This document shows positions 5,690-64,000 of a stretch of 64,000 nt of DNA, one piece after another (the stretch's first letter is position 1; the number at the start of each line of letters is the position of its first letter). The notes beneath the pieces were generated by a model that did no database searches, had not been told where the DNA came from, and saw only the letters and a list, made by a program, of their open reading frames with translations. The position numbers and the translations under genes are program-made. The stretch is from Palleronia pontilimi (lineage in GTDB: Bacteria > Pseudomonadota > Alphaproteobacteria > Rhodobacterales > Rhodobacteraceae), in assembly GCF_016412875.1 (NCBI RefSeq), contig NZ_JAEKPD010000005.1, positions 124,001 through 188,000 on the forward strand, written 5' to 3'.

Positions 5690-6775
5690 TCAGCGCAGCT
5701 TCAGCGTGGCCAGCCCGATCAGCGCCAGGATCAGGCTGATGATCCAGAACCGGATGACGATCTGCGGCTCGGCCCAGCCGCGCTTTTCGAAATGATGGTG
5801 GATCGGCGCCATCAGGAACACGCGCTTGCCGGTACGCTTGAAATACAGGACCTGGATGATGACGCTCAGCGCCTCCACCACGAACAGCCCGCCCACGATG
5901 CCCAGCACGAGCTCGTGCTTGATGGCCACCGCGATGGCGCCCAGCGCGCCACCCAGCGCCAGCGACCCGGTATCGCCCATGAAGACGGCGGCGGGCGGTG
6001 CGTTGTACCACAAGAACCCCAGGCCCCCGCCGATCAATCCCGCGCAGAAGATCAAAATCTCGCCCGTGCCCGGCACGTAATGCACGTCCAGGTAGTCGGT
6101 GAAGTCCACCCGCCCCACGGTATAGGCTATGATCCCCAGCGTGGCGGCAGCGATCATCACCGGCATCACGGCCAGCCCGTCCAGACCGTCCGTCAGGTTC
6201 ACCGCGTTGGCGGCCCCCACGATCACGATCATGGCGAAGGGGATGAACAGGAAACCCAGGTTCAACAGGACGTCCTTGAATACCGGGAAGGCCATCCGGT
6301 TGGTCAGGGCCTCGGGATGGGCCCAGGACGCGGCGCCCGCGGCAATGGCCGCGATGGCGAAGCCGATCAGCAGGCGCGTCCGGCCCGACAGGCCCGCATG
6401 GCTGTTGCTGGTCACCTTCGCGTAGTCGTCGGCAAACCCGATCAGGCCGAAGGACACGGTGACGAACAGCAGGATCCAGACGTATGGGTTGTCCAGCCGC
6501 GCCCAGAGCAGCGTCGACACGATCAGCGCACCCAGGATCAGCACTCCGCCCATGGTGGGCGTGCCCGCCTTGGTGACCACGTGGCTTTCGGGGCCATCGG
6601 TGCGGATCGGCTGGCCGTATCGCTGGCGGCGGCGCAGCAGGTTGATCAGCGGTTGACCGAAGATGAAGCCGAAGATGAGCGCCGTGAAGAACGCACCGCC
6701 CGAGCGGAACGTGATATACTGGAAGAGGTTGAAGATATCCCCTCCGTCCGAAAAATTCGACAACCAGTAGAACAT
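5690..6775 (-). CDS. mraY: Phospho-N-acetylmuramoyl-pentapeptide-transferase MraY
   Basis: MraY is the integral membrane enzyme that transfers phospho-MurNAc-pentapeptide to undecaprenyl phosphate, producing lipid I. The 361-residue protein has about ten membrane segments. It carries [11 protein letters not shown] near residue 75, the aspartate-rich GFADDYAKV near residue 115, the [10 protein letters not shown] motif near residue 195, [12 protein letters not shown] near residue 265, and the cytoplasmic loop [12 protein letters not shown] near residue 325, all diagnostic of MraY. It starts 14 bases downstream of the murF stop and precedes murD, the standard dcw order. Length and motif set are complete. 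Confidence 0.97.
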
Positions 6776-6789
6776 GGGTAGCGGTCCCC

Positions 6790-8202
6790 CTAGACCTCAG
6801 CGCGGGACCGGCGCGCAAGCGCGCGCAGGCCATCGACGATGCGCGCGGTCTTTGCGCCTTTCGAGCCTTTGACAAGCACGATATCGCCCGCGCCCACCAA
6901 ATCGCCCAATCGGTGTGTCAATTCCTCGGCAGTCTCGGCCCATTCGCCCCGCTGGGCGACGGGCAGCGCGTCATAGGCCGCGCGGATGCGTGGCCCGGCG
7001 CAATGGATCACGTCGACCGCGTCAAGGCCCGGATGCCGTGCGATGGCGGCGTGCAGGGCCCGTTCGTCCGGTCCCAGTTCCAGCATGTCGCCCAGGAAGG
7101 CCACGCGGCGGCCCGCGCCCTCGGGCGCGGCCGCGATAAGCGTGTCGAGCGCCGCGGCCATGGATGCGGGGTTGGCGTTGAAGGCGTCGTCGATCAGCGT
7201 CAGGTGCCGATCTGTCGCGGCATCCAGCGTCAGCGTCTCGCGCAGACCCCGGCCCGCCACTTGCCGCCAGCGGCCCAGACCCTGCGCCGACAGAGCCAGG
7301 TCCGCGCCCGCCGCGACACAGGCAGCCAGCGCGCCAAGCGCGTTCATCGCCAGGTGGCGGCCCTGCGCCTGGAGCGCGATCGCCGCCGTGCCGTCCGGCA
7401 CATCGGCGCTCAAGACCAGCGCGTCCGCCGCCTCATCGATCCGAGCCACCGACCACGCGGCGTCGCGGCTGCCGAAACGCCAGGCGCCCTCGGGGGCCAG
7501 TGCGTCGATCACCGCGCCCGCTTCGGGCGCCACGTCCACCGGCAGCACCGCGATGCCGCCGGGCTCCAGCCCGTCGACGATCGCCATCTTTTCGCGCGCG
7601 ATGCCGTCCAGCCCGGCGAAGGCTTCCAGGTGCGCGGCCGCGACCGTGGTCAGCAGCGCCACGTGGGGCCGGGCCAGCCGCGACAGGGGCGAGATCTCGC
7701 CGGGGTGGTTCATGCCGATCTCGATGATCGCGAAATCCGTCCCATGCGGCATCCGCGCCAGCGTCAGCGGGACGCCCCAGTGGTTGTTGTAGCTGGCCTC
7801 GGCCGCGTGGACATGGCCCTGCCCTTCGAGCGCCGCGCGCAGCATTTCCTTCGTCGTCGTCTTGCCGACCGAGCCTGTCACCGCGATCACCCGAGCCTGC
7901 GTTCGCGCGCGGGCATGGACGCCCAGCCGCTCCAGCCCGCCCAGCACGTCGTCCACGACCAGAAGCGGGGCCGCGTCGTCCAGACCGTCCGGCACGCGCG
8001 ACACCAAGGCAGCGGCTGCGCCCTTGTCCAGCGCCTGCGCCACGAAATCGTGCCCGTCGCGCTGGTCGGTCAGCGCGACGAACAAATCGCCCGGCCGGAT
8101 CGTGCGCGTGTCGATGGACACGCCATTCGCCTGCCAGTCCCGCGTCGTCACGCCGCCCGTCGCACGGGCCGCCTCGTCGCTGGTCCAGAGCGTCCCGGTC
8201 AT
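6790..8202 (-). CDS. murF: UDP-N-acetylmuramoyl-tripeptide--D-alanyl-D-alanine ligase MurF
   Basis: MurF adds the D-Ala-D-Ala dipeptide, completing UDP-MurNAc-pentapeptide. The 470-residue product shows the N-terminal substrate-binding motif [16 protein letters not shown] near residue 29, the Mur-ligase P-loop [12 protein letters not shown] near residue 108, [10 protein letters not shown] near residue 165 and the downstream [10 protein letters not shown] motif near residue 335. Its ATG overlaps the murE stop as ATGA (8199-8202), so the two are coupled. All three Mur-ligase domains are intact. Confidence 0.96.
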
Positions 8203-54605: not shown

Positions 54606-55526
54606 ATGAAAACCGGACTTTCCATCCTTGCCCTGACCGCCAGCGCCGGCATGGCGCTTGCCGATTGCGAAACCATCACCTTCTCGGATGTCGGCTGGAC
54701 CGACATCACCGCCACCACCGCCGCCACGACCGTGGTGCTGGACGCGCTGGGATATGACACCGAAATCAAGGTGTTGTCGGTGCCCGTCACCTATACCTCC
54801 ATGGCCGAAGGCGACATCGACGTGTTCCTGGGCAACTGGATGCCCACCATGGAAAACGACATCGCCCCCTACCGCGAAGCGGGCACCGTCGACACCGTGC
54901 GCGCCAACCTCGAAGGCGCCAAGTACACGCTGGCCGTGAACAAGGCCGCCGCCGACATGGGCATCGCCAGCTTCGAAGATATCGCCCCCAACCGCGACGC
55001 GCTGGACGGCGAGATCTACGGCATCGAGCCCGGCAATGACGGCAACCGCCTGATCCAGTCGATGATCGACGAAGGCGCCTTCGGGCTGGACGGCTTCGAA
55101 GTGGTCGAATCGTCCGAGCAGGGGATGCTCGCGCAGGTCGAACGCTCGAACCGCCGCGACCAGCCCATCGTCTTCCTGGGATGGGAGCCGCATCCCATGA
55201 ACGCCCAGTTCGAGATGTCGTACCTGACCGGCGGCGACGACTATTTCGGCCCCAACCTGGGCGGCGCCACGGTCTATACCAACACCGCCGCGGGCTTCGC
55301 GGAATCCTGCCCGAACATCGGCACGCTCCTGAACAACCTCGAGTTCACGCTCGAGATGGAAAACCAGATCATGGGCGCGATCCTGAACGACGGCACCGAA
55401 GCCTCCGAGGCCGCAACCGCCTGGCTGAAGGAAAACCCGGGCGCCCTCGACGGCTGGCTCGACGGGGTCGAGACCGCGTCGGGCGAGCCCGGCCTTCCGG
55501 CCGTCAAATCCGCGCTCGGCCTCTAA
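54606..55526 (+). CDS. choX: Choline ABC transporter substrate-binding protein ChoX
   Basis: ChoX is the periplasmic choline/acetylcholine-binding protein. The 306-residue protein has a signal peptide (MKTGLSILALTASAGMALA) and the OpuAC-type fold with DVGWTDITATTAATTVVLDA near residue 28, VDVFLGNW-like IDVFLGNWMPTMENDIAPYR near residue 73 and VFLGWEPHPMNAQFEM near residue 190; tryptophans and acidic residues of the aromatic cage are present. AGGGAGA lies 9 bases before the ATG. No choW permease or choV ATPase follows; thpR comes next, so the transporter is incomplete at this locus. Confidence 0.9.
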   Translation: MKTGLSILALTASAGMALADCETITFSDVGWTDITATTAATTVVLDALGYDTEIKVLSVPVTYTSMAEGDIDVFLGNWMPTMENDIAPYREAGTVDTVRANLEGAKYTLAVNKAAADMGIASFEDIAPNRDALDGEIYGIEPGNDGNRLIQSMIDEGAFGLDGFEVVESSEQGMLAQVERSNRRDQPIVFLGWEPHPMNAQFEMSYLTGGDDYFGPNLGGATVYTNTAAGFAESCPNIGTLLNNLEFTLEMENQIMGAILNDGTEASEAATAWLKENPGALDGWLDGVETASGEPGLPAVKSALGL

Positions 55527-55549
55527 GACGATCCGGTCGGGGGCCACGC

Positions 55550-56092
55550 ATGCGCATCTTCGTGGCCCTCGACCTGTCGGACGACCTGATCGACGCCCTG
55601 TCGCGGCTGCAGGACCACCTGAAGACCGGCCGCCTCGTCCCCGAAGACGACCTGCACCTGACGCTCGCCTTCGTGCCGGACATCAAGCCGCAGCCGCTCG
55701 ACGACCTGGCGCTCGACCTGGAAATGCTGCGCACAGCACCCCTCGCGCTGGACGCGCGGGGCGTGGCCACCTTCGGCAGCGCAAGGCCCCGCAGCCTGCG
55801 TGCGGCGATCATGCCCAACCCGGCCCTCAACTACCTGCAGTCGAAGGTCACGACGCTGATCCGGCGCGCGGGCGTCATCCTGCCCCATCGCCGTTTCGTC
55901 CCCCACATCACGCTGGCGCGATTCCCCAACACCATGGCCCCCGACGAGCACGCCCGGCTCGGGCGCTTCCTGCAGGCCCATGGCGACTGGTCCCACCCGC
56001 CGACGCCCGCCACCAAGCTGACGCTCTACCAGTCCACGCTCACGCCGGACGGACCGCGATACGACGCGCTGCAAAGCCACGACCTGATCTGA
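55550..56092 (+). CDS. thpR: RNA 2',3'-cyclic phosphodiesterase ThpR
   Basis: ThpR belongs to the 2H phosphoesterase (LigT) family and opens RNA 2',3'-cyclic phosphates. The 180-residue protein begins MRIFVALDLSDDL and carries both catalytic HxTx motifs, HLTLAF near residue 36 and HITLAR near residue 123, with ALDARGVATFGSARPR between. The ATG at 55550 matches the family N-terminus. It lies 23 bases after choX and may be read through from it, though the functions are unrelated. Confidence 0.9.
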   Translation: MRIFVALDLSDDLIDALSRLQDHLKTGRLVPEDDLHLTLAFVPDIKPQPLDDLALDLEMLRTAPLALDARGVATFGSARPRSLRAAIMPNPALNYLQSKVTTLIRRAGVILPHRRFVPHITLARFPNTMAPDEHARLGRFLQAHGDWSHPPTPATKLTLYQSTLTPDGPRYDALQSHDLI

Positions 56093-56126
56093 CCCGCCCG
56101 CGGCACCTCCGGCCCGCACCCGCGTT

Positions 56127-56153
56127 CCCCATCTTTGTTCTTCCAAATATCCC
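56127..56153 (-). repeat. GGATATTT-type intergenic element, copy 5
   Basis: On the minus strand GGGATATTTGG is followed by AAGAACAAAGATGGGG, 44 bases after the GntR gene stop. It is nearly identical to the copy at 5641-5665. Confidence 0.6.
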
Positions 56154-56197
56154 GGCACGCCGCCTGCCCCGGGCGCGACGATACCTGCCAAAGCGGC

Positions 56198-56902
56198 TCA
56201 GTCGCCTGCCAGGATCATCCGCAGCCCGTGGGTCACGTCGCTGCGCACCGCTAGGCGCAGACCCGGCTCGTCGCCGGCCTCGAGCGCCGCGATGATCCCC
56301 ACATGGCCCCGCGGCGGCGCGGTGCGGTTCATCCGCCCATAAAGCGCCCGCATGGTGGGTCCCAGCTGCAGCCAGACCGTCTCGGCCATGGCCAGCATCG
56401 CCGGGGCCTGCGCGCGCAGGTACAGCATCCGGTGGAATTCCAGGTTGCGGCGCAGGTATTCCACCGCGTCACCCTTCGCCACCGCTTCCGCGATCAGCGT
56501 GTTCACGGCGCGCATCCGCTCGATCATCGCCCCGTGGGCGCGCGGCAGGGCGCGGCTGGCCAGCTCGACCTCGATCAGCGCGCGCAAGGCCGCCAGCTCC
56601 TCGATCCGGTCGGGCGACAGGTCCGGCGTCGTCACCCGGCCCGACGGCGACAGGGTCAGCGCCCCTTCGGCCACCAGCCGCCGCGCCGCCTCGCGCGCGG
56701 GGGTCATCGACACGCCGAACTGCCGCCCGATGCCGCGCAGCGTCAGCGCCGCACCCGGCGCCAGCTCGCCATGCATGATCTGGGTCCGCAGCACGCGGTA
56801 GACCCGGTCATGGGCCGCCTGGCCCTGGCCCGCCTCGGGGCGGCTCTGGATCAGCACCGCGCCACTTTCAGCCGAACTGCCAGGCGTGCAGATCACCGCC
56901 AT
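56198..56902 (-). CDS. GntR-family (FadR/FCD) transcriptional regulator
   Basis: The 234-residue protein has a GntR winged HTH (RVYRVLRTQIMHGELAPGAA, then LRGIGRQFGVSMTPAREAAR at about residues 55-74) and a helical FCD ligand domain with ELAALRALIEVELASRALPR and the metal-site-like YLRRNLEFHRMLY and DVTHGLRMIL. The ATG at 56902 overlaps the end of the YgjP gene by 35 bases; GTG at 56857 would avoid the overlap and still include the whole HTH, so the exact start is open. The effector is unknown; FCD ligands are usually small organic acids. Confidence 0.85.
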   Translation of the reverse strand: MAVICTPGSSAESGAVLIQSRPEAGQGQAAHDRVYRVLRTQIMHGELAPGAALTLRGIGRQFGVSMTPAREAARRLVAEGALTLSPSGRVTTPDLSPDRIEELAALRALIEVELASRALPRAHGAMIERMRAVNTLIAEAVAKGDAVEYLRRNLEFHRMLYLRAQAPAMLAMAETVWLQLGPTMRALYGRMNRTAPPRGHVGIIAALEAGDEPGLRLAVRSDVTHGLRMILAGD

Positions 56903-58111: not shown

Positions 58112-58187
58112 GGGCCCTTAGCTCAGATGGTAGAGCGCCTGCATGGCATGCAGGAGGTCAGCGGTTCGATCCCGCTAGGGTCCACCA
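58112..58187 (+). tRNA. tRNA-Ala(GGC)
   Basis: The 76-base cloverleaf has acceptor stem GGGCCCT/AGGGTCC (with one G-U pair), anticodon stem CCTGC/GCAGG enclosing the loop ATGGCAT (anticodon GGC), T-loop TTCGATC and an encoded CCA. It stands alone. Confidence 0.96.
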
Positions 58188-59065: not shown

Positions 59066-59083
59066 ACGTTGATAAGTTATCAG
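59066..59083. promoter_or_regulatory. Operator-like motif upstream of the MarR-like gene
   Basis: ACGTTGATAAGTTATCAG lies 32 bases before the start of the regulator gene. Its core TGATAA-G-TTATCA is a perfect palindrome, and 15 of 18 bases match a site in the dctP/pxpB divergent promoter. It may be an autoregulatory operator. Confidence 0.55.
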
Positions 59084-59115
59084 TAATTCGTCAGTCAAAG
59101 GTTGTAGAGGTTGTC

Positions 59116-59631
59116 ATGTCCGAACCCGACACGCGCCGCATCGTCTCGTCCCGCCACCTGGCCGAGGGCGAGATGTGGGAGATGTCCGAGCTGGAATACG
59201 GGCTGATTGTCGCCCACAACGCCTTTTATCGCTGGATGACGAAATGCATGGCCGCGGCGGGCCAGCCGGACCTGAGCGCGCTGGAAATCCTGGTGCTGCA
59301 CAACGCCAACCACCGCGACCGGGCCAAGCGCGTGTCCGATATCTGCTTCCTTCTGAATATCGAGGACACCCACACCGTCACCTACGCGCTGCGCAAGCTG
59401 GTGAAGCTCGCGCTTCTGACGGCCGAGAAACGCGGCAAGGAAGTCTTCTACACGACCTCGGATACGGGCCGCGATCTGTGCGCCCGCTACCGCACGCTGC
59501 GCCAGCAATGCTTGCTGCAGGCCTTGCCCGGCGGCGGGGTGGACGGCGCCGCCCTGCGCGACGCCGCGGCCCTTCTGCGCAGCCTGTCGGGCCAGTTCGA
59601 CCAGGCCAGCCGCGCGGCCGCGTCCCTCTAG
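59116..59631 (+). CDS. MarR-like winged-helix regulator next to a TRAP transporter
   Basis: The 171-residue protein has a winged-helix domain at about residues 30-125: LIVAHNAFYRWMTKCMAA, LSALEILVLHNANH, the recognition segment VSDICFLLNIEDTHTVTYAL, and the wing KLALLTAEKRGKEVFYTTSD, with helices for dimerisation at both ends. It resembles MarR/PF13463-type regulators found beside TRAP transporters in roseobacters. It is convergent with dctM. The shared motif upstream of its own gene and of dctP/pxpB suggests that it controls the whole cluster. Confidence 0.82.
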   Translation: MSEPDTRRIVSSRHLAEGEMWEMSELEYGLIVAHNAFYRWMTKCMAAAGQPDLSALEILVLHNANHRDRAKRVSDICFLLNIEDTHTVTYALRKLVKLALLTAEKRGKEVFYTTSDTGRDLCARYRTLRQQCLLQALPGGGVDGAALRDAAALLRSLSGQFDQASRAAASL

Positions 59632-59635
59632 GCAC

Positions 59636-59679
59636 AGAAAATCGGGGATTTTCTGGCAAAGATTATCAGGGATAATCTT
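59636..59679. terminator. Two tandem perfect hairpins between the convergent regulator and dctM genes
   Basis: AGAAAATC/GATTTTCT (59636-59643 with 59647-59654, 3-base loop) is followed by AAGATTATC/GATAATCTT (59659-59667 with 59671-59679, 3-base loop). Both are perfect and AU-rich, unlike the surroundings, and lie 5 bases after one stop and 6 bases before the other. A bidirectional terminator role is likely, though there is no classical GC stem. Confidence 0.55.
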
Positions 59680-59685
59680 GCCCGC

Positions 59686-60987
59686 TCAATTGCCCATGGC
59701 GTTCGGTAACACCGTGACGATGCCCGGGAACACCGTGATCAGGGCAGCCCCCAGCACCAGCAGCGCAAAGAACGGCAGCGCCGCTTTCGCCACCCGCAGG
59801 ATGTCGATCCCGGTCAGCCCCTGGATGACGAACAGGTTGAAGCCCACCGGCGGCGTGATCTGGCTCATCTCGACCACCAGCACCAGGTAGATGCCGAACC
59901 ACAGCCGGTCGATCCCCGCCGCCTCGACCATGGGCAGGATGATCGACGTGGTCAGCACCACGATGGAAATCCCGTCCAGAAAACAGCCCAGCACGATGAA
60001 GAACACCGTCAGTGCCGCCAGCAGCGCATAGGGCGACAGCTCGAACGCGCCGATCCACGCCGCCAGGTTGCGCGGGATGCCCGTGAACCCCATCGAGATC
60101 GACAGGAACGCCGCCCCCAGCAGGATGAAGGCGATCATGCACGACGTGCGCGTGGCCCCCATCAGCGCATCCTTGAACTCGGACCACCCGAAGCTCGACG
60201 TCATGGACGCCAGCACCAACGCCAGGAACACGCCCACCGCCGCGGCGTCCGTGGGCGACGCGATGCCGGTATAGATCGACCCGATGACGCCCGCGATCAG
60301 CAGCACCACCGGCACCAGCCGCCGCGACGCGCGCAGCTTTTCCATCAGCGAGAAATCCGTCGCCTCGACCGGAATCAGGTCGCGGTCCAGCAGCGCCCGC
60401 ACCGCGACGTAGCCCGCGAACAAGCCCACCAGCATCAGCCCCGGCAGGATCCCCGCCACGAACAGCCGCGCGATGCTCTGCTCGGTCGCCACGCCATAGA
60501 CGATCAGGATGATCGACGGCGGGATCAGCAGGCCCAGCGTGGCGCTGCCCGCCAGCGTGCCCAGGATCAGGCTTTCGGGATAACCGCGGCCCTTCAGCTC
60601 GGGCACGCTCATCTTGCCGATGGTCGCCGCCGTCGCCGCGGACGAGCCCGACACGGCGGCGAAGATCGCGCAGCCCAGGATGTTGACATGCAGCAGCCGC
60701 CCCGGCGCGCGGCCCAGCCACGGGGCCAAGCCGGAAAACATATCCTCGGACAGCCTAGATCGCAGCAGGATCTCGCCCATCAGAATGAACAGCGGCAGGG
60801 CCGCCAGCGGCCAACTGTGCGAATGGCCCCACAGCGTCGTGGCCAGCACCAGCCCCTCGGGCGCGTTGGTGAAAAAGGCCATGGCGACGAAGGCCATGAC
60901 CATCAGCGCCAGCGCGACCCACAGGCCCATGGCCAGCAGACCGATCAACAGGCCGAAGAGCAGCGCGAAGATGGCGGGATCGGACAT
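59686..60987 (-). CDS. dctM: TRAP transporter large membrane subunit DctM
   Basis: DctM is the 12-segment ion-coupled translocation subunit of a tripartite TRAP transporter. The 433-residue protein carries the DctM family features: PLAALPLFILMGEILLRS near residue 62, ILGCAIFAAVSGSSAATAAT near residue 102, GSATLGLLIPPSIILIVYG near residue 145, and the late PVGFNLFVIQGLTGID. The start at 60987 shares one base with the dctQ stop (TGATG). The sequence alone does not tell the substrate; the pxpBC neighbours suggest 5-oxoproline. Confidence 0.93.
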   Translation of the reverse strand: MSDPAIFALLFGLLIGLLAMGLWVALALMVMAFVAMAFFTNAPEGLVLATTLWGHSHSWPLAALPLFILMGEILLRSRLSEDMFSGLAPWLGRAPGRLLHVNILGCAIFAAVSGSSAATAATIGKMSVPELKGRGYPESLILGTLAGSATLGLLIPPSIILIVYGVATEQSIARLFVAGILPGLMLVGLFAGYVAVRALLDRDLIPVEATDFSLMEKLRASRRLVPVVLLIAGVIGSIYTGIASPTDAAAVGVFLALVLASMTSSFGWSEFKDALMGATRTSCMIAFILLGAAFLSISMGFTGIPRNLAAWIGAFELSPYALLAALTVFFIVLGCFLDGISIVVLTTSIILPMVEAAGIDRLWFGIYLVLVVEMSQITPPVGFNLFVIQGLTGIDILRVAKAALPFFALLVLGAALITVFPGIVTVLPNAMGN

Positions 60988-61511
60988 CAGGCTTCTCCCG
61001 CGTCGATCAGGACGGGACGCCGCGTGCGCAGCGCCTCGACCAGGGTGTCGATCAGCGCCACCAGCAGCAGCCCCAGCCCCGCCACCATGGGCACCTGCGG
61101 GATCCACAGCGGGATCGCGATGATGCCGGTGGACTGGTCGCCGTAATGCCAGCTTTCGCCCACCAGCATAGCGGTCCAGTAGGTCGCGATCCCGACCATG
61201 CCGATGCCCACGACCAGCACCAGGATCTCGCTGACCCACATCATGGCCCGGGGGAACCGCTGCACCAGCAGGTTCACGCGGATATGCACCCCGTGGCGCA
61301 GGGTCGACGCGGCCGCCAGGAAGGTGGCGGCCGCCAGCGCGAAGCCCGCGAAATCGGCGTAGGACGGGATCGTCAGGTTCGCCTGCGGCCCGCCCAGGCG
61401 CGACGCGATGTTCAGGCCCACCTGCGCCGTGACCACCGCGCAAATGCTCAGGATCGACAGCGCCGCCAGCCATCCGGCGCCGCTGTAAAGACTATCCAGA
61501 AACCGCCGCAT
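60987..61511 (-). CDS. dctQ: TRAP transporter small membrane subunit DctQ
   Basis: The 174-residue protein has four membrane segments (about residues 12-35, 50-70, 90-115 and 135-160) and the DctQ-type patterns FAGFALAAATFLAAASTLRH and GVHIRVNLLVQRFP, where the conserved arginine-rich loop lies between the second and third segments. It is coupled to dctM. A hairpin between dctP and dctQ should lower its expression relative to the binding protein. Confidence 0.9.
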   Translation of the reverse strand: MRRFLDSLYSGAGWLAALSILSICAVVTAQVGLNIASRLGGPQANLTIPSYADFAGFALAAATFLAAASTLRHGVHIRVNLLVQRFPRAMMWVSEILVLVVGIGMVGIATYWTAMLVGESWHYGDQSTGIIAIPLWIPQVPMVAGLGLLLVALIDTLVEALRTRRPVLIDAGEA

Positions 61512-61529
61512 CGCCCTGCCCCTTCATAG

Positions 61530-61560
61530 TAAAAAGCCCCGCGCAAGACCTGCACGGGGC
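61530..61560 (-). terminator. Intercistronic hairpin between dctP and dctQ
   Basis: On the minus strand a 10-base-pair stem (61551-61560 with 61536-61545, one G-U pair, 5-base loop) is followed by TTTTTA. It lies 18 bases after the dctP stop. Such partial terminators favour surplus binding protein over membrane subunits. Confidence 0.8.
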
Positions 61561-61578
61561 GGTGTTTGATGGAAAGCC

Positions 61579-62547
61579 TCAGCCCCGGAAATCGCTCAGG
61601 ATCTGCTTGGCCTCGTCGCTGGCGCTGGCATTCCAGCTTTCCAGCATGTCGTCACCGATCGCCTGCAGGCCGCTGATCAGCTCGTCGCTGGGCTCGTAGA
61701 CGATGATGCCGTTATCGGCCATCTCCTTAGTCTTCGCCTCCGCCTCGGCCATGGACATTTCCCAGCCGCGCGTCTCAGCGGCGGCAGCGGCGTCCAGGAC
61801 GGCCTGCTGCTGATCCTCGGGCAGCCGGTCGAAGGCGCGCTGGTTCACCACGACGATGTTCTTCGGGATCCAGGCGTTGATCGGCGAATAATGGGTCAGG
61901 AAATCCCATGCCTTCGAATCCGCCCCGGTGGACGGCGACGTGATCATCGCTTCGACCTGGCCCGTGCTGAAGGCCTGCGGAATGTCGGGCGCCTCGACCT
62001 GCACGGGGGCGGCACCGGCCAGCTGCGCGAACTCTTCCAGCTGCGCGTTGTAGGCGCGGAAACGCAGGCCGTTCAGGTCGTCCACGGTCGCGATCTCGCC
62101 GTTGGTGTAAAGCCCCTGCGCGGGCCACGGCACGGAAAAGAGCGGCATCAGGTTCTCGGCGGCCAGAAGCTCGGTGATGACGGGCTCTTGCGCTTCCCAC
62201 AGCGCCTGCGCCTGCTCGTAGGACGTGGCGACGAAGGGCTGCGAATCAAGGCCATAGGCCGCGTCTTCGTTCGACAGGCGCGACAGGAAGAACTCGCCGA
62301 TGGGCACCTGCATCGAGCGCACGGCGCCCTTGATCTCGGCATGGGGGAACAGCGAGCCGGCCGAATGGATGGTGAACTCCAGCCCGCCATCGGTGGCCGC
62401 CGTGACCTCTTCGGTGAACTGGCGGATGTTGTCGGTGTGGAAGATGCCGTCGCCGTAGGGCGTGGCGAAATCCCAGGTCTCGGCCAGTGCGGGCGTGGCG
62501 GCGACGGCCAGCCCGGTGGCGAAAACGACGTTGCGGATATGGGTCAT
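61579..62547 (-). CDS. dctP: TRAP transporter substrate-binding protein DctP
   Basis: The 322-residue periplasmic protein starts with a signal peptide (MTHIRNVVFATGLAVAATPALA) and has the DctP layout: AETWDFATPYGDGIFHTDNI, AEIKGAVRSMQVPIGEFF, LFSVPWPAQGLYTNGEI, and the carboxylate-anchoring region LNGLRFRAYNAQLEEFAQLA, whose conserved arginine in RFRAYN normally salt-bridges the substrate carboxylate. AGGAGA precedes the ATG at 62547; a longer frame upstream would have no signal peptide at its start. It is the first gene of dctPQM, divergent from pxpB. Confidence 0.92.
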   Translation of the reverse strand: MTHIRNVVFATGLAVAATPALAETWDFATPYGDGIFHTDNIRQFTEEVTAATDGGLEFTIHSAGSLFPHAEIKGAVRSMQVPIGEFFLSRLSNEDAAYGLDSQPFVATSYEQAQALWEAQEPVITELLAAENLMPLFSVPWPAQGLYTNGEIATVDDLNGLRFRAYNAQLEEFAQLAGAAPVQVEAPDIPQAFSTGQVEAMITSPSTGADSKAWDFLTHYSPINAWIPKNIVVVNQRAFDRLPEDQQQAVLDAAAAAETRGWEMSMAEAEAKTKEMADNGIIVYEPSDELISGLQAIGDDMLESWNASASDEAKQILSDFRG

Positions 62548-62596
62548 TTGGTCTCTCCTGATGGTGTCATCGATTTTCATGATCGTTATTTCAGAC

Positions 62597-62628
62597 ACGT
62601 TGACAATTTATCGGTGTTTTGTCAACGT
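62597..62628. promoter_or_regulatory. Inverted-repeat operator in the dctP/pxpB divergent promoter
   Basis: ACGTTGACA (62597-62605) and TGTCAACGT (62620-62628) form a perfect 9-base inverted repeat with a 14-base spacer. The left half extends to ACGTTGACAATTTATCGG, which matches the site before the MarR-like gene. It lies 50 bases before dctP and 27 bases before pxpB, and its TTGACA arms could double as -35 elements. Confidence 0.65.
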
Positions 62629-62655: not shown

Positions 62656-63414
62656 ATGCCCCTTGCCGCCTCCAGCTTCGAGCGTCCCGATCCGCCCCGC
62701 CTGACACCCCTTGGCCTCGACGGCATGCTCGTCACCTTCGGCGACGCCATGGACGACGCCGCCAACCGCGCCGCGCTGGCCTTCCGCGCCGCCATCGACG
62801 CGGAAAACTGGCAAGGCGTGACCGAAACGGCAAGCTCGCTCTGCTCGGCCTTCGTGTCCTTCGAGCCCGGCCAGCTGTCGCCGTCCGATTTGCAGGCACG
62901 CCTGCGCGAAATTCTGGCGGATCGCGACTGGCTGGCCGAAGACCTGCCCGCGAACCGCACGCTCTGGACCATTCCGGCGTCCTTCGAAGGCGACCATGCC
63001 CCGCAACTGGCCGACGCGGCCGAGCTTGCGGGCGTCAGCGTCGAGCAGGCCGTGAAGCAGATCTGCGCCGAACCGCTGCGCGCCTACGCGCTGGGCTACG
63101 CGCCCGGGCAGGCCTATCTGGGCGCCCTGCCCGAGCACTGGGACCTGGCGCGCCAGAAGGACCTGACCCCGACCGTGAAGGAAGGCGCGGTCGTCACCGC
63201 CGTGCGCCAAGTCATCGTCTTCGCCACCTCCGGGCCCACGGGCTGGCGGCAGATCGGCATGTCGCGCTTCAAGGCCTTCCGCCCCGACGACCCCGACCGC
63301 CCCATAGCCCTCGCCCCCGGCGACGAGGTGCAGCTGCGCCCCGTCTCGCGCGACGAGCTCGACCGGCTGGCCGCCGAGCCCCTGGCGGGCGCCACCGCGG
63401 AGGACATCCGATGA
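62656..63414 (+). CDS. pxpB: 5-oxoprolinase subunit PxpB (KipI family)
   Basis: PxpB with PxpC and PxpA makes the ATP-dependent bacterial 5-oxoprolinase, which opens 5-oxoproline to glutamate. The 252-residue protein has the allophanate-hydrolase subunit 1/KipI features: DGMLVTFGDAMDDAANRAAL near the start, LWTIPASFEGDHAPQLADAA near residue 110, AYALGYAPGQAYLGALPEHW near residue 145, and the C-terminal TGWRQIGMSRFKAFRPDDPD. AAAGG precedes the ATG. It overlaps pxpC as ATGA. The same fold occurs in urea-amidolyase-type enzymes, so a related carboxylase role remains possible. Confidence 0.88.
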   Translation: MPLAASSFERPDPPRLTPLGLDGMLVTFGDAMDDAANRAALAFRAAIDAENWQGVTETASSLCSAFVSFEPGQLSPSDLQARLREILADRDWLAEDLPANRTLWTIPASFEGDHAPQLADAAELAGVSVEQAVKQICAEPLRAYALGYAPGQAYLGALPEHWDLARQKDLTPTVKEGAVVTAVRQVIVFATSGPTGWRQIGMSRFKAFRPDDPDRPIALAPGDEVQLRPVSRDELDRLAAEPLAGATAEDIR

Positions 63415-64000
63415 CCACGCTCACCATCAAGAAGATCGGCCCCGGCGCGTCCATTCAGGACTTGGGCCGCCGCGGGCTCCTGGCCCAGGGCCTGTCGCGC
63501 GGCGGCGCCGCGGACCGGCTGGCGCTGCTGGAAGGGGCCGCCCTGCTGGACCAGTCGCCCGATTGCGCCGCGCTCGAGATGACCGCCATGGGCGGCACCT
63601 TCAACGTCGACGCGCCCAGCCGCATCGCGCTGACCGGCGCGCCCCTGCGCGCCCAGATCGACGGCGAAAGCGTCACCTGGCACGCCTCGCACCGCCTGAA
63701 GCCGGGCCAGACCCTGACCCTTGGTCCCGGCAAGGGCGGCGTCTGGTCCTACCTGCACCTGGGCGGCGGTATCCAGACCGATCCGATCATGGGCAGCCGC
63801 GCCACCCACCTGTCGCTGAAGCTCGGCCTGATCCCCGAAACGGGCACCGAGCTGCCGCTGAAAGACGACCAGTCCGGCCCGGTCGAACGGGTCGTCGACG
63901 TGGCGGACCGGTTCAAGGGCGGCCAGGTCCGCGTCTTGGCCTCGACCCATACCGCGCTGTTCTCGCAGGACGATATCGACCGGTTCGAGACGACGACCTT
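63411..64000 (+). CDS. pxpC: 5-oxoprolinase subunit PxpC (KipA family), partial
   Basis: The first 196 residues of PxpC are present before the window ends. They have the allophanate-hydrolase subunit 2 pattern: IKKIGPGASIQDLGRRG near the start, GLSRGGAADRLALLEGAALL, LEMTAMGGTF, IALTGAPLRAQIDG and WSYLHLGGGIQTDPIMGSRA. It is coupled to pxpB by ATGA. The C-terminal half and any pxpA gene lie outside the window. Confidence 0.88.
   Translation, partial: MTTLTIKKIGPGASIQDLGRRGLLAQGLSRGGAADRLALLEGAALLDQSPDCAALEMTAMGGTFNVDAPSRIALTGAPLRAQIDGESVTWHASHRLKPGQTLTLGPGKGGVWSYLHLGGGIQTDPIMGSRATHLSLKLGLIPETGTELPLKDDQSGPVERVVDVADRFKGGQVRVLASTHTALFSQDDIDRFETTT

Follow-up and report, generated by a model that had tools for sequence, protein, structure and literature searches.

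A MarR-family repressor very probably governs the uptake and hydrolysis of 5-oxoproline (pyroglutamate, glutamate in cyclised form) through a conserved operator, two copies of which lie in the window, the whole 64-kb stretch of DNA analysed here. The first-pass annotation had read this region as a regulon in which a MarR-like protein controls dctPQM and pxpBC, and this reading is supported by the conservation of the motif, its co-occurrence with the regulator, and the presence of a full PxpBCA set. Sequence shows the operator, how it is conserved and how it is tied to the regulator, as well as which genes are present and a predicted MarR fold; the features are collected in Table 1.

Table 1. 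Features of the regulator, transporter and 5-oxoprolinase region, in window coordinates.
Feature	Position	Strand	Details
Operator of the regulator's own gene (first site)	59066..59083	+	ACGTTGATAAGTTATCAG; second-best PWM match in the window, score 10.9
Core of the first site	59069-59083		Ends 32 nt upstream of the regulator ATG
Palindrome TGATAA-G-TTATCA	59070-59082		Perfect; inside the first site
Weak second operator unit	59080..59094	+	TCAGTAATTCGTCAG; downstream of the core by exactly 11 bp; 12th-ranked match in the window (score 2.5)
MarR-family regulator, 171 aa	59116..59631	+	Pfam HTH_27 1.1e-16; AlphaFold pLDDT 85.6; MarR folds in PDB
dctM, TRAP large permease	59686..60987	-	Domain/family matches
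dctQ, TRAP small permease	60987..61511	-	Domain match
dctP, TRAP binding protein	61579..62547	-	Best PDB matches 2PFY (268 bits) and 2PFZ (243 bits)
Operator region, divergent dctP/pxpB promoter	62597..62628	.	Core and overlapping unit
dctP/pxpB operator core	62600-62614		TTGACAATTTATCGG; PWM score 16.2, rank 1 in the window
Overlapping operator unit	62611-62625		11 bp on from the 62600-62614 core; score 7.9, rank 3 in the window
pxpB, 5-oxoprolinase subunit	62656..63414	+	Pfam CT_C_D 9.8e-45; TIGR00370 match below cutoff
pxpC, 5-oxoprolinase subunit, gene start	63411..64000	+	CT_A_B; gene ends 433 bases beyond the window

Both 18-mers pointed out in the first-pass annotation lie on the + strand, the second (ACGTTGACAATTTATCGG) at 62597-62614, and they agree at 15 of 18 positions, differing at three. 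The perfect inverted repeat described at the second site is present, with a length of 10 nt and not 9; it is formed by the outer halves of the dctP/pxpB operator (ACGTTGACAA at 62597-62606 and TTGTCAACGT at 62619-62628). A family PWM trained without the window places the two reported sites at ranks 1 and 2 within it, and the 11-bp register of the operator units is also present in relatives; the predicted operator is a 15-bp palindromic core within a longer operator with 11-bp phasing. The shared AT-rich word is rare, as had been proposed. When up to 3 mismatches are allowed, a degenerate 18-mer pattern is matched twice in the window (0.04 expected from shuffles) and three times in the entire genome of 3,724,089 bases, where the additional match lies elsewhere and has 3 mismatches; apart from the reported sites, nothing in 3.72 Mb matches with fewer than 3 mismatches, and the motif is not frequent at unrelated places. 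Rarity alone proves little, because the degenerate pattern was derived from the two sites themselves; compared with the family consensus TTGACAAWTTGTCAR, the first site has 3 mismatches and the second 2, and 11 of 100 shuffled versions of the window contain at least 3 matches of this kind. The comparative evidence therefore carries the weight. Across 20 genomes, 8 of the 17 sites with at most one mismatch are located away from TRAP, 5-oxoprolinase and regulator genes, and no 5-oxoproline gene was seen near these eight when their contexts were read by eye.

Motif discovery in 67 dctP promoters of relatives yields the palindrome TTGACAAATTGTCAA. The total score is 1309, taken from the best of 120 random starts, and 20 shuffled sets, each run from 6 starts, reach 499 at most; since the procedure forces palindromic symmetry and assigns one site to every promoter, the 67 sites do not amount to 67 tests. 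The actual test of conservation is a cross-layout matrix, trained only on other gene layouts, which finds a site at the same place in 66 of the 67 dctP promoters at p 0.05 (the failure being L049) and in 60 at p 0.01; C and C? count as separate layouts here, so that training for C included the two C? loci and training for C? included those of C. The search upstream of orthologous clusters, which the first-pass annotation had named as a check, thus finds the motif conserved. At the linked loci L156 and L160, no operator was found in place in the stretches examined. In layout C the core is nearly invariant in its second half as well; in layouts A and B that half is partly conserved, clearly less so than TTGACA. 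Where a D-amino-acid-dehydrogenase-like gene heads the TRAP operon (10 loci), the best upstream site always lies 73-95 nt before that gene and reaches p 0.05 in nine cases (L184, 0.073); eight of these loci have no regulator in the stretch examined. In Pseudaestuariivita, a perfect operator core is found upstream of a lone 5-oxoprolinase gene.

In these comparisons, regulator and operator occur together or are both missing, tending toward joint loss. Among 100 relatives searched, the dctP counts cover 30 of 47 matches; within these 30, the 17 loci of regulator-positive genomes score 5.8 to 24.0 and the 13 of regulator-less genomes at most 3.6, and relative to composition-matched shuffles p 0.05 is reached by 16/17 regulator-positive promoters as against 1/13 regulator-less ones. 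The exceptions are the regulator-positive L209, which misses p 0.05, and the regulator-less L204, which just reaches it. Five of the 17 (L192, L193, L194, L198 and L199) were also in the training set of the matrix; outside that set the count is 11/12 at p 0.05. There are 20 regulator-positive genomes, those absent from the 17 being G044 and G051, with dehydrogenase-headed operons, and G085. The p values for the association overstate the case, because related genomes were treated as independent. Two congeners keep the TRAP and pxp genes, with both regulator and operator absent; the operator is kept where the regulator gene is unlinked; and every one of the 20 genomes that match the regulator strongly has a TRAP or 5-oxoprolinase gene within the stretch examined. 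The flanks examined around lower-scoring regulator homologues (29-37% identity or partial; L026-L032, L166) contain no TRAP or 5-oxoprolinase genes.

The regulator combines a winged-helix DNA-binding domain (HTH_27, a member of the MarR clan) with an overall MarR fold that has helical dimerisation ends in the predicted structure. HTH_27 is its only Pfam match at E 0.001, GntR and FCD domains giving none, and MarR_2 matches two orthologues just below its cutoff. A phmmer search of PDB sequences gave no usable match (best E 0.98); the fold matches in PDB, SlyA, AbfR, FabT, HpaR and other MarR factors, have 10-25% identity to the regulator. In an alignment of 35 sequences (34 of 80 from relatives, plus the window protein), the recognition helix is predicted at about residues 85-97 and the wing at about 101-114, and Cys44 and Cys132 are invariant in all 35. 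That the regulator also controls itself, as had been suggested, is well supported in the window's layout, where the own-gene site is significant in 12/17 promoters, and weak in layouts B (6/29), C (5/21) and D (4/13); support for autoregulation thus extends to the window's layout, not to all of them.

DctP matches 2PFY and 2PFZ, which we take to be DctP6 and DctP7 of Bordetella pertussis and which are its closest solved relatives, over nearly its full length, above all other TRAP receptors, which score at most 60 bits except for 6WGM with 214. It is closest to the pyroglutamate-binding DctP type and a candidate 5-oxoproline receptor. Excerpts of a review describe the two Bordetella receptors as crystallised with pyroglutamate; the first-pass annotation had also mentioned TRAP binding proteins for pyroglutamate in Bordetella. 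On the enzyme side, pxpA (251 aa) follows pxpC just beyond the window end (L004:5412-6434 and 6431-7186), and pxpB, pxpC and pxpA stand together as a complete set; pxpA, of LamB/YcsF type, was named from reading its translation, and its relatives adjoin pxpB/C in other loci. The TIGR00370 and NF045499 matches fall below their equivalog cutoffs, and the PxpC sequence used is truncated where the window stops. PxpABC is a bacterial 5-oxoprolinase according to a published abstract.

In layout C, pxpBCA is replaced by a gene of the hydantoinase (eukaryote) type of 5-oxoprolinase, while regulator, TRAP transporter and operator are all kept. The L084 gene (1194 aa) carries Hydant_A_N, Hydantoinase_A and Hydantoinase_B on a single polypeptide, and ORFs of 1157-1257 aa with the word GGTFTD occur at 19 of the 21 layout-C/C? 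loci, the contigs of the other two ending less than 2 kb from dctP; by family, the gene of these relatives would be a 5-oxoprolinase. A single control circuit has probably been kept across Alphaproteobacteria through the exchange of two non-homologous 5-oxoprolinases and the relocation of the regulator gene, with a so far undescribed MarR-family 5-oxoproline sensor and half-sites one helical turn apart.

For this circuit we infer direct binding, repression instead of activation, and the ligand. A MarR-family dimer would occupy the 15-bp palindromic operator TTGACAAWTTGTCAA in the dctPQM/pxpBCA promoter, and weaker operator units would lie beside it at a distance of one helical turn (11 bp). 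The left operator half, TTGACA, coincides with a -35-like hexamer, and the bound dimer should therefore exclude RNA polymerase. Release of the dimer by 5-oxoproline, or by a close product, would turn on import through dctPQM and ATP-dependent hydrolysis to glutamate through pxpBCA; the second, weaker site at the regulator gene would add negative feedback in the window's lineage. CATAAA occurs at 18 bp in 13/21 layout-C promoters. In the window's layout no convincing -10 hexamer was found, TATAAT being matched at 2-3 of 6 positions in 17/17 layout-A promoters; repression by covering the -35 is for this reason the weaker proposition there.

As no clear -10 is seen in the window's layout, the operator may be placed differently relative to the start site, and the regulator might work from it as an activator; most MarR proteins are repressors, however, and with TTGACA in the core and the CATAAA of layout C, activation seems unlikely. 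That the shared word represents a conserved promoter element or another regulator's binding site, with the MarR-like gene a mere neighbour, is very improbable. TTGACA is the -35 consensus and the better-conserved half in layouts A and B, and some genomes have the regulator gene far from the operator; but the operator persists in genomes with an unlinked regulator, and it is missing from regulator-less genomes, including the two congeners with the same TRAP and pxp genes. A mere -35 word is rejected because conservation extends to the second half and genomes without the regulator lack the site. Ownership of the site by a LacI-type gluconate regulator, whose gene lies close to one unlinked operon, is rejected because the site accompanies the MarR-like gene in other layouts. 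Control of eda/edd, which lie beside the unlinked regulator in 5/13 layout-D loci, is likewise rejected: in 4/5 of these loci none of the four best-scoring sites lies before edd, with one reservation, a site of score 9.0 about 80 bp upstream of edd in L069.

The signal leaves more room. The MarR-like protein could act through the operator and sense something else, such as glutamate, or redox state through the invariant cysteines, and ligands across the MarR family are diverse; but the regulator accompanies two enzymes that are unrelated and yet, judged by family, both act on 5-oxoproline, which indicates 5-oxoproline as the signal and makes another one a tentative possibility. That transporter and enzyme serve a different small carboxylate (another lactam or a D-amino acid product) is distinctly improbable: the layout-C hydantoinase-type gene matches caprolactamase subunits best in NCBIfam, far below cutoff, and the D-amino-acid-dehydrogenase-like gene lies within the operon in some genomes, but PxpABC is a 5-oxoprolinase and DctP is nearest to two receptors reported with bound pyroglutamate.

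Among the closest known systems is PxpR-pxpTABC of Corynebacterium glutamicum (PMC13274462), where the uptake of 5-oxoproline and its hydrolysis by PxpABC are likewise under a dedicated local regulator that acts on a palindromic sequence of the operon promoter. PxpR, however, is of GntR type, with the palindrome agattgttcaacaatct, in contrast to a MarR-family protein and TTGACAAWTTGTCAA; transport is by an APC-type carrier instead of a TRAP transporter; and its authors deem autoregulation unlikely, whereas the window regulator has a site at its own gene (PMC13274462). The window regulator is thus similar to PxpR in role and unrelated in family. Calorimetry has shown tight, specific binding of 5-oxoproline by PxpR, and the paper states that, to its authors' knowledge, bacterial regulation of 5-oxoproline metabolism had not been studied before (PMC13274462, 2026). 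For Bordetella DctP6/DctP7, the excerpts of the literature examined describe no MarR regulator or operator, and no description of the regulator, the operator or such targets of a MarR protein was found in the open-access literature.

In a large, mostly marine group of bacteria, the system makes a regulator, its operator, a transporter and two alternative enzymes accessible to testing. It provides a clean natural case of the joint loss of a regulator and its operator, and of a control circuit outlasting an enzyme swap, and the regulator is a candidate 5-oxoproline biosensor.

The 5-oxoproline locus runs past the end of the window; its elements, together with those lying upstream, are collected in the table.

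Features of the 5-oxoproline locus and its upstream surroundings (window coordinates)
Feature	Position	Strand	Remark
Genes for a choline ABC transporter binding protein and a GntR/FCD regulator	54606-56902		upstream; apparently unrelated
tRNA-Ala gene	58112-58187		anticodon ggc
First 18-mer	59066-59083		before the regulator gene
MarR-family regulator gene	59116-59631	+	
dctM, dctQ, dctP	59686-62547	-	in that order after the regulator gene
Second 18-mer	62597-62614		dctP/pxpB promoter
Overlapping operator unit	62611		
pxpB, pxpC, pxpA			divergent from dctP; pxpA past window end

The two 18-mers lie where the first-pass annotation placed them and are the sole close matches in the 3.72-Mb genome, where the motif is rare. 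The first contains the perfect palindrome TGATAA-G-TTATCA; at the second, the inverted repeat that had been reported is present, with a length of 10 nt rather than 9.

The best 80 of 210 regulator-homologue loci from a scan of genome contigs show four layouts. Layout A (17 loci) has the arrangement of the window; in layout B (29 loci, one on a contig cut after dctP), dctP-Q-M-pxpB-C-A is divergent from the regulator gene; in layout C (19 loci, and two extra ones whose contigs end less than 2 kb from dctP), dctPQM is accompanied by a divergent hydantoinase-type 5-oxoprolinase that replaces pxpBCA (in locus L084 an enzyme of 1194 aa with Hydant_A_N, Hydantoinase_A and Hydantoinase_B); and in layout D (13 loci, including L046, L078, L082 and L083, which are short or stop close to the regulator), there is no dctP in the locus. 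Two loci look like ordinary Rhodobacteraceae in records titled Nocardioides marinus (L103, JAHVJD010000006.1; regulator 71% identical) and Sedimenticola (L100, JAMOMH010000265.1; 68%), which may be mislabelled or misassembled. A distant hydantoinase-type homologue (32%; L153, G102:C10:48260-51868) has one in-frame TAA, and its contig carries a second pxpA-like gene (39%) about 4 kb away.

When the dctP promoters of layouts A, B and C, 67 in all, are searched for a palindromic motif, the consensus is TTGACAAATTGTCAA, mostly 40-60 bp upstream of the dctP start; the total score is 1309, and shuffled sets reach no more than 499. Since such a search assigns a site to every promoter by design, we added a stricter test, in which the matrix is trained only on the other layouts and judged against shuffles: it recovers the same place in 67/67 promoters, significantly at 0.05 in 66 (L049 fails) and at 0.01 in 60. 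The motif is conserved upstream of orthologous clusters. The TTGACA half hardly varies; the other half is nearly fixed in layout C and partly retained in A and B. In a scan of the whole window, with a matrix whose training set did not include it, the dctP/pxpB site ranks first (16.2), the site before the regulator gene second (10.9), and an overlapping unit exactly 11 bp from the core third (7.9). When five genomes of the genus are compared, conservation between dctP and pxpB is concentrated in the operator block, and the site before the regulator gene keeps its palindromy while its letters vary (TTGATAAGTTATCAG, TTGATAACTTATCGT, CCGGTAAATTACCGG, TCGATAAAATATCGT).

Regulator homologues near dctM, dctP or a hydantoinase-type gene also occur in six other alphaproteobacterial families (51-57% identical) and, within the same family, in five further genera (45-50%). 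In loci L155, L158, L159, L163, L164 and L165, the gap between dctP and the enzyme gene holds the matrix's top match within 12-13 kb; in L157 the second-best match is in the regulator-dctP gap, and in L161 and L162 the best adjoins the regulator. The matrix scan finds no site in place within the stretch fetched for L156 and L160; the full dctP upstream region of the L160 genome (L213) has one (score 8.1, p 0.02).

With its flanks, the core lengthens towards CATAACG-TTGACAAWTTGTCAA-CGTTATG. For a secondary unit, layouts A and B favour offsets of +11 and -11, and layout C those of -11, +22 and +11, all within 0.04 z units; in 16 of 19 further promoters, none from the training set, the best is 11 or 22 bp to either side. 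The inverted repeat at the second 18-mer thus arises from the joined outer halves of two overlapping units.

The AlphaFold model of the regulator (35 sequences, pLDDT 85.6) combines a winged helix and long terminal helices, and MarR structures are matched throughout the structure match lists. In all 35 aligned regulators, six of the 13 residues of the predicted recognition helix are invariant, with four more nearly so, as is the wing stretch KRGKEVFY; this is expected if all regulators read one operator. Cys44 and Cys132 are also invariant in these 35 homologues. We infer that a MarR-type dimer would act as a repressor, covering TTGACA in the divergent promoter, and that 5-oxoproline would release it from the operator. 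In layout C, CATAAA stands 18 bp after TTGACA in 13/21 promoters; among layout A promoters no convincing -10 turns up, so that for the window itself this start-site arrangement is tentative. Sites that would serve autoregulation, significant by the matrix and upstream of the regulator gene, occur in 12/17 loci of layout A, 6/29 of B (shared site excluded), 5/21 of C and 4/13 of D.

With at most one mismatch, TTGACAAWTTGTCAR has matches in 15 of the 20 genomes searched; nine of these 17 distinct sites, and all six exact ones, are at 5-oxoproline genes, and the reversed control pattern has one match. A strong matrix match (16.2) also lies about 200 bp upstream of a distant regulator homologue (34%; L166:5935-6617) with no 5-oxoproline genes nearby.

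Regulator and operator occur together. Among 100 genomes, that of the window included, the regulator is found in 20 at E <=1e-40 (any match in 24), always with a TRAP or 5-oxoprolinase gene within the stretch fetched (20/20). We compared 30 of 47 dctP matches, 17 from regulator-positive genomes and 13 from others: the best matrix site in the 300 bp upstream of dctP scores 5.8 to 24.0 with the regulator and -13.6 to 3.6 without it, reaching p 0.05 against dinucleotide shuffles in 16/17 and 1/13, and p 0.01 in 13/17 and 0/13, respectively. The exceptions are L209 (regulator-positive, p 0.086) and L204 (regulator-less, p 0.0498); five of the 17 regulator-positive loci were shared with the training set, and 11 of the remaining 12 are significant. 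A DctP at least 50% identical is present in 20 genomes, 15 with the regulator and five without (G004, G009, G012, G048, G086). Two of the latter, G004 and G009, belong to the same genus and keep TRAP and pxpBCA genes (DctP 75-77%); the regulator search and the matrix scan before dctP find both regulator and operator absent. In G009 another gene, by eye for an NAD(P)-binding protein, stands between dctM and the neighbouring gene, which in the window has a weak spermidine-synthase match.

According to PMC13274462, PxpR of Corynebacterium is GntR-type, its palindrome differs from the operator found here, and the transporter there is APC-type; Bordetella TRAP receptors are named as another uptake type, and a TRAP review reports crystal structures of the Bordetella receptors with pyroglutamate. 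Our search of the open-access literature found no report of a MarR-type 5-oxoproline regulon.

The operator also occurs in trans (ARRANGEMENTS), at unlinked genes. In Pseudaestuariivita, the regulator (L070) is apart from the 5-oxoproline genes, and on another contig a hydantoinase-type gene that has no dctP next to it is preceded, at 40 nt, by a perfect core. Seven further layout-D genomes have a TRAP/pxp operon elsewhere, with a D-amino-acid-dehydrogenase-like gene (so named from L181 only) first; it is spread over two contigs in G107, and some such operons have a gap of about 0.9 kb before pxpB. In all ten loci with this head gene (L180-L185, L188, L190, L161, L162), the best site in 300 bp is 73-95 nt upstream of it, reaching p 0.05 in nine (L184 misses; 8.5, p 0.073). 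Entner-Doudoroff genes eda and edd adjoin the unlinked regulator in L062, L069, L096, L099 and L109, with a moderate site (9.0) before edd in L069 only. The dehydrogenase-headed operons suggest that the oxidation of D-amino acids is linked to the use of 5-oxoproline. With pxpBCA in some layouts and the hydantoinase-type gene in another, one regulator and transporter thus accompany two enzymes of unrelated sequence, whose common substrate, judged by family, would be 5-oxoproline.
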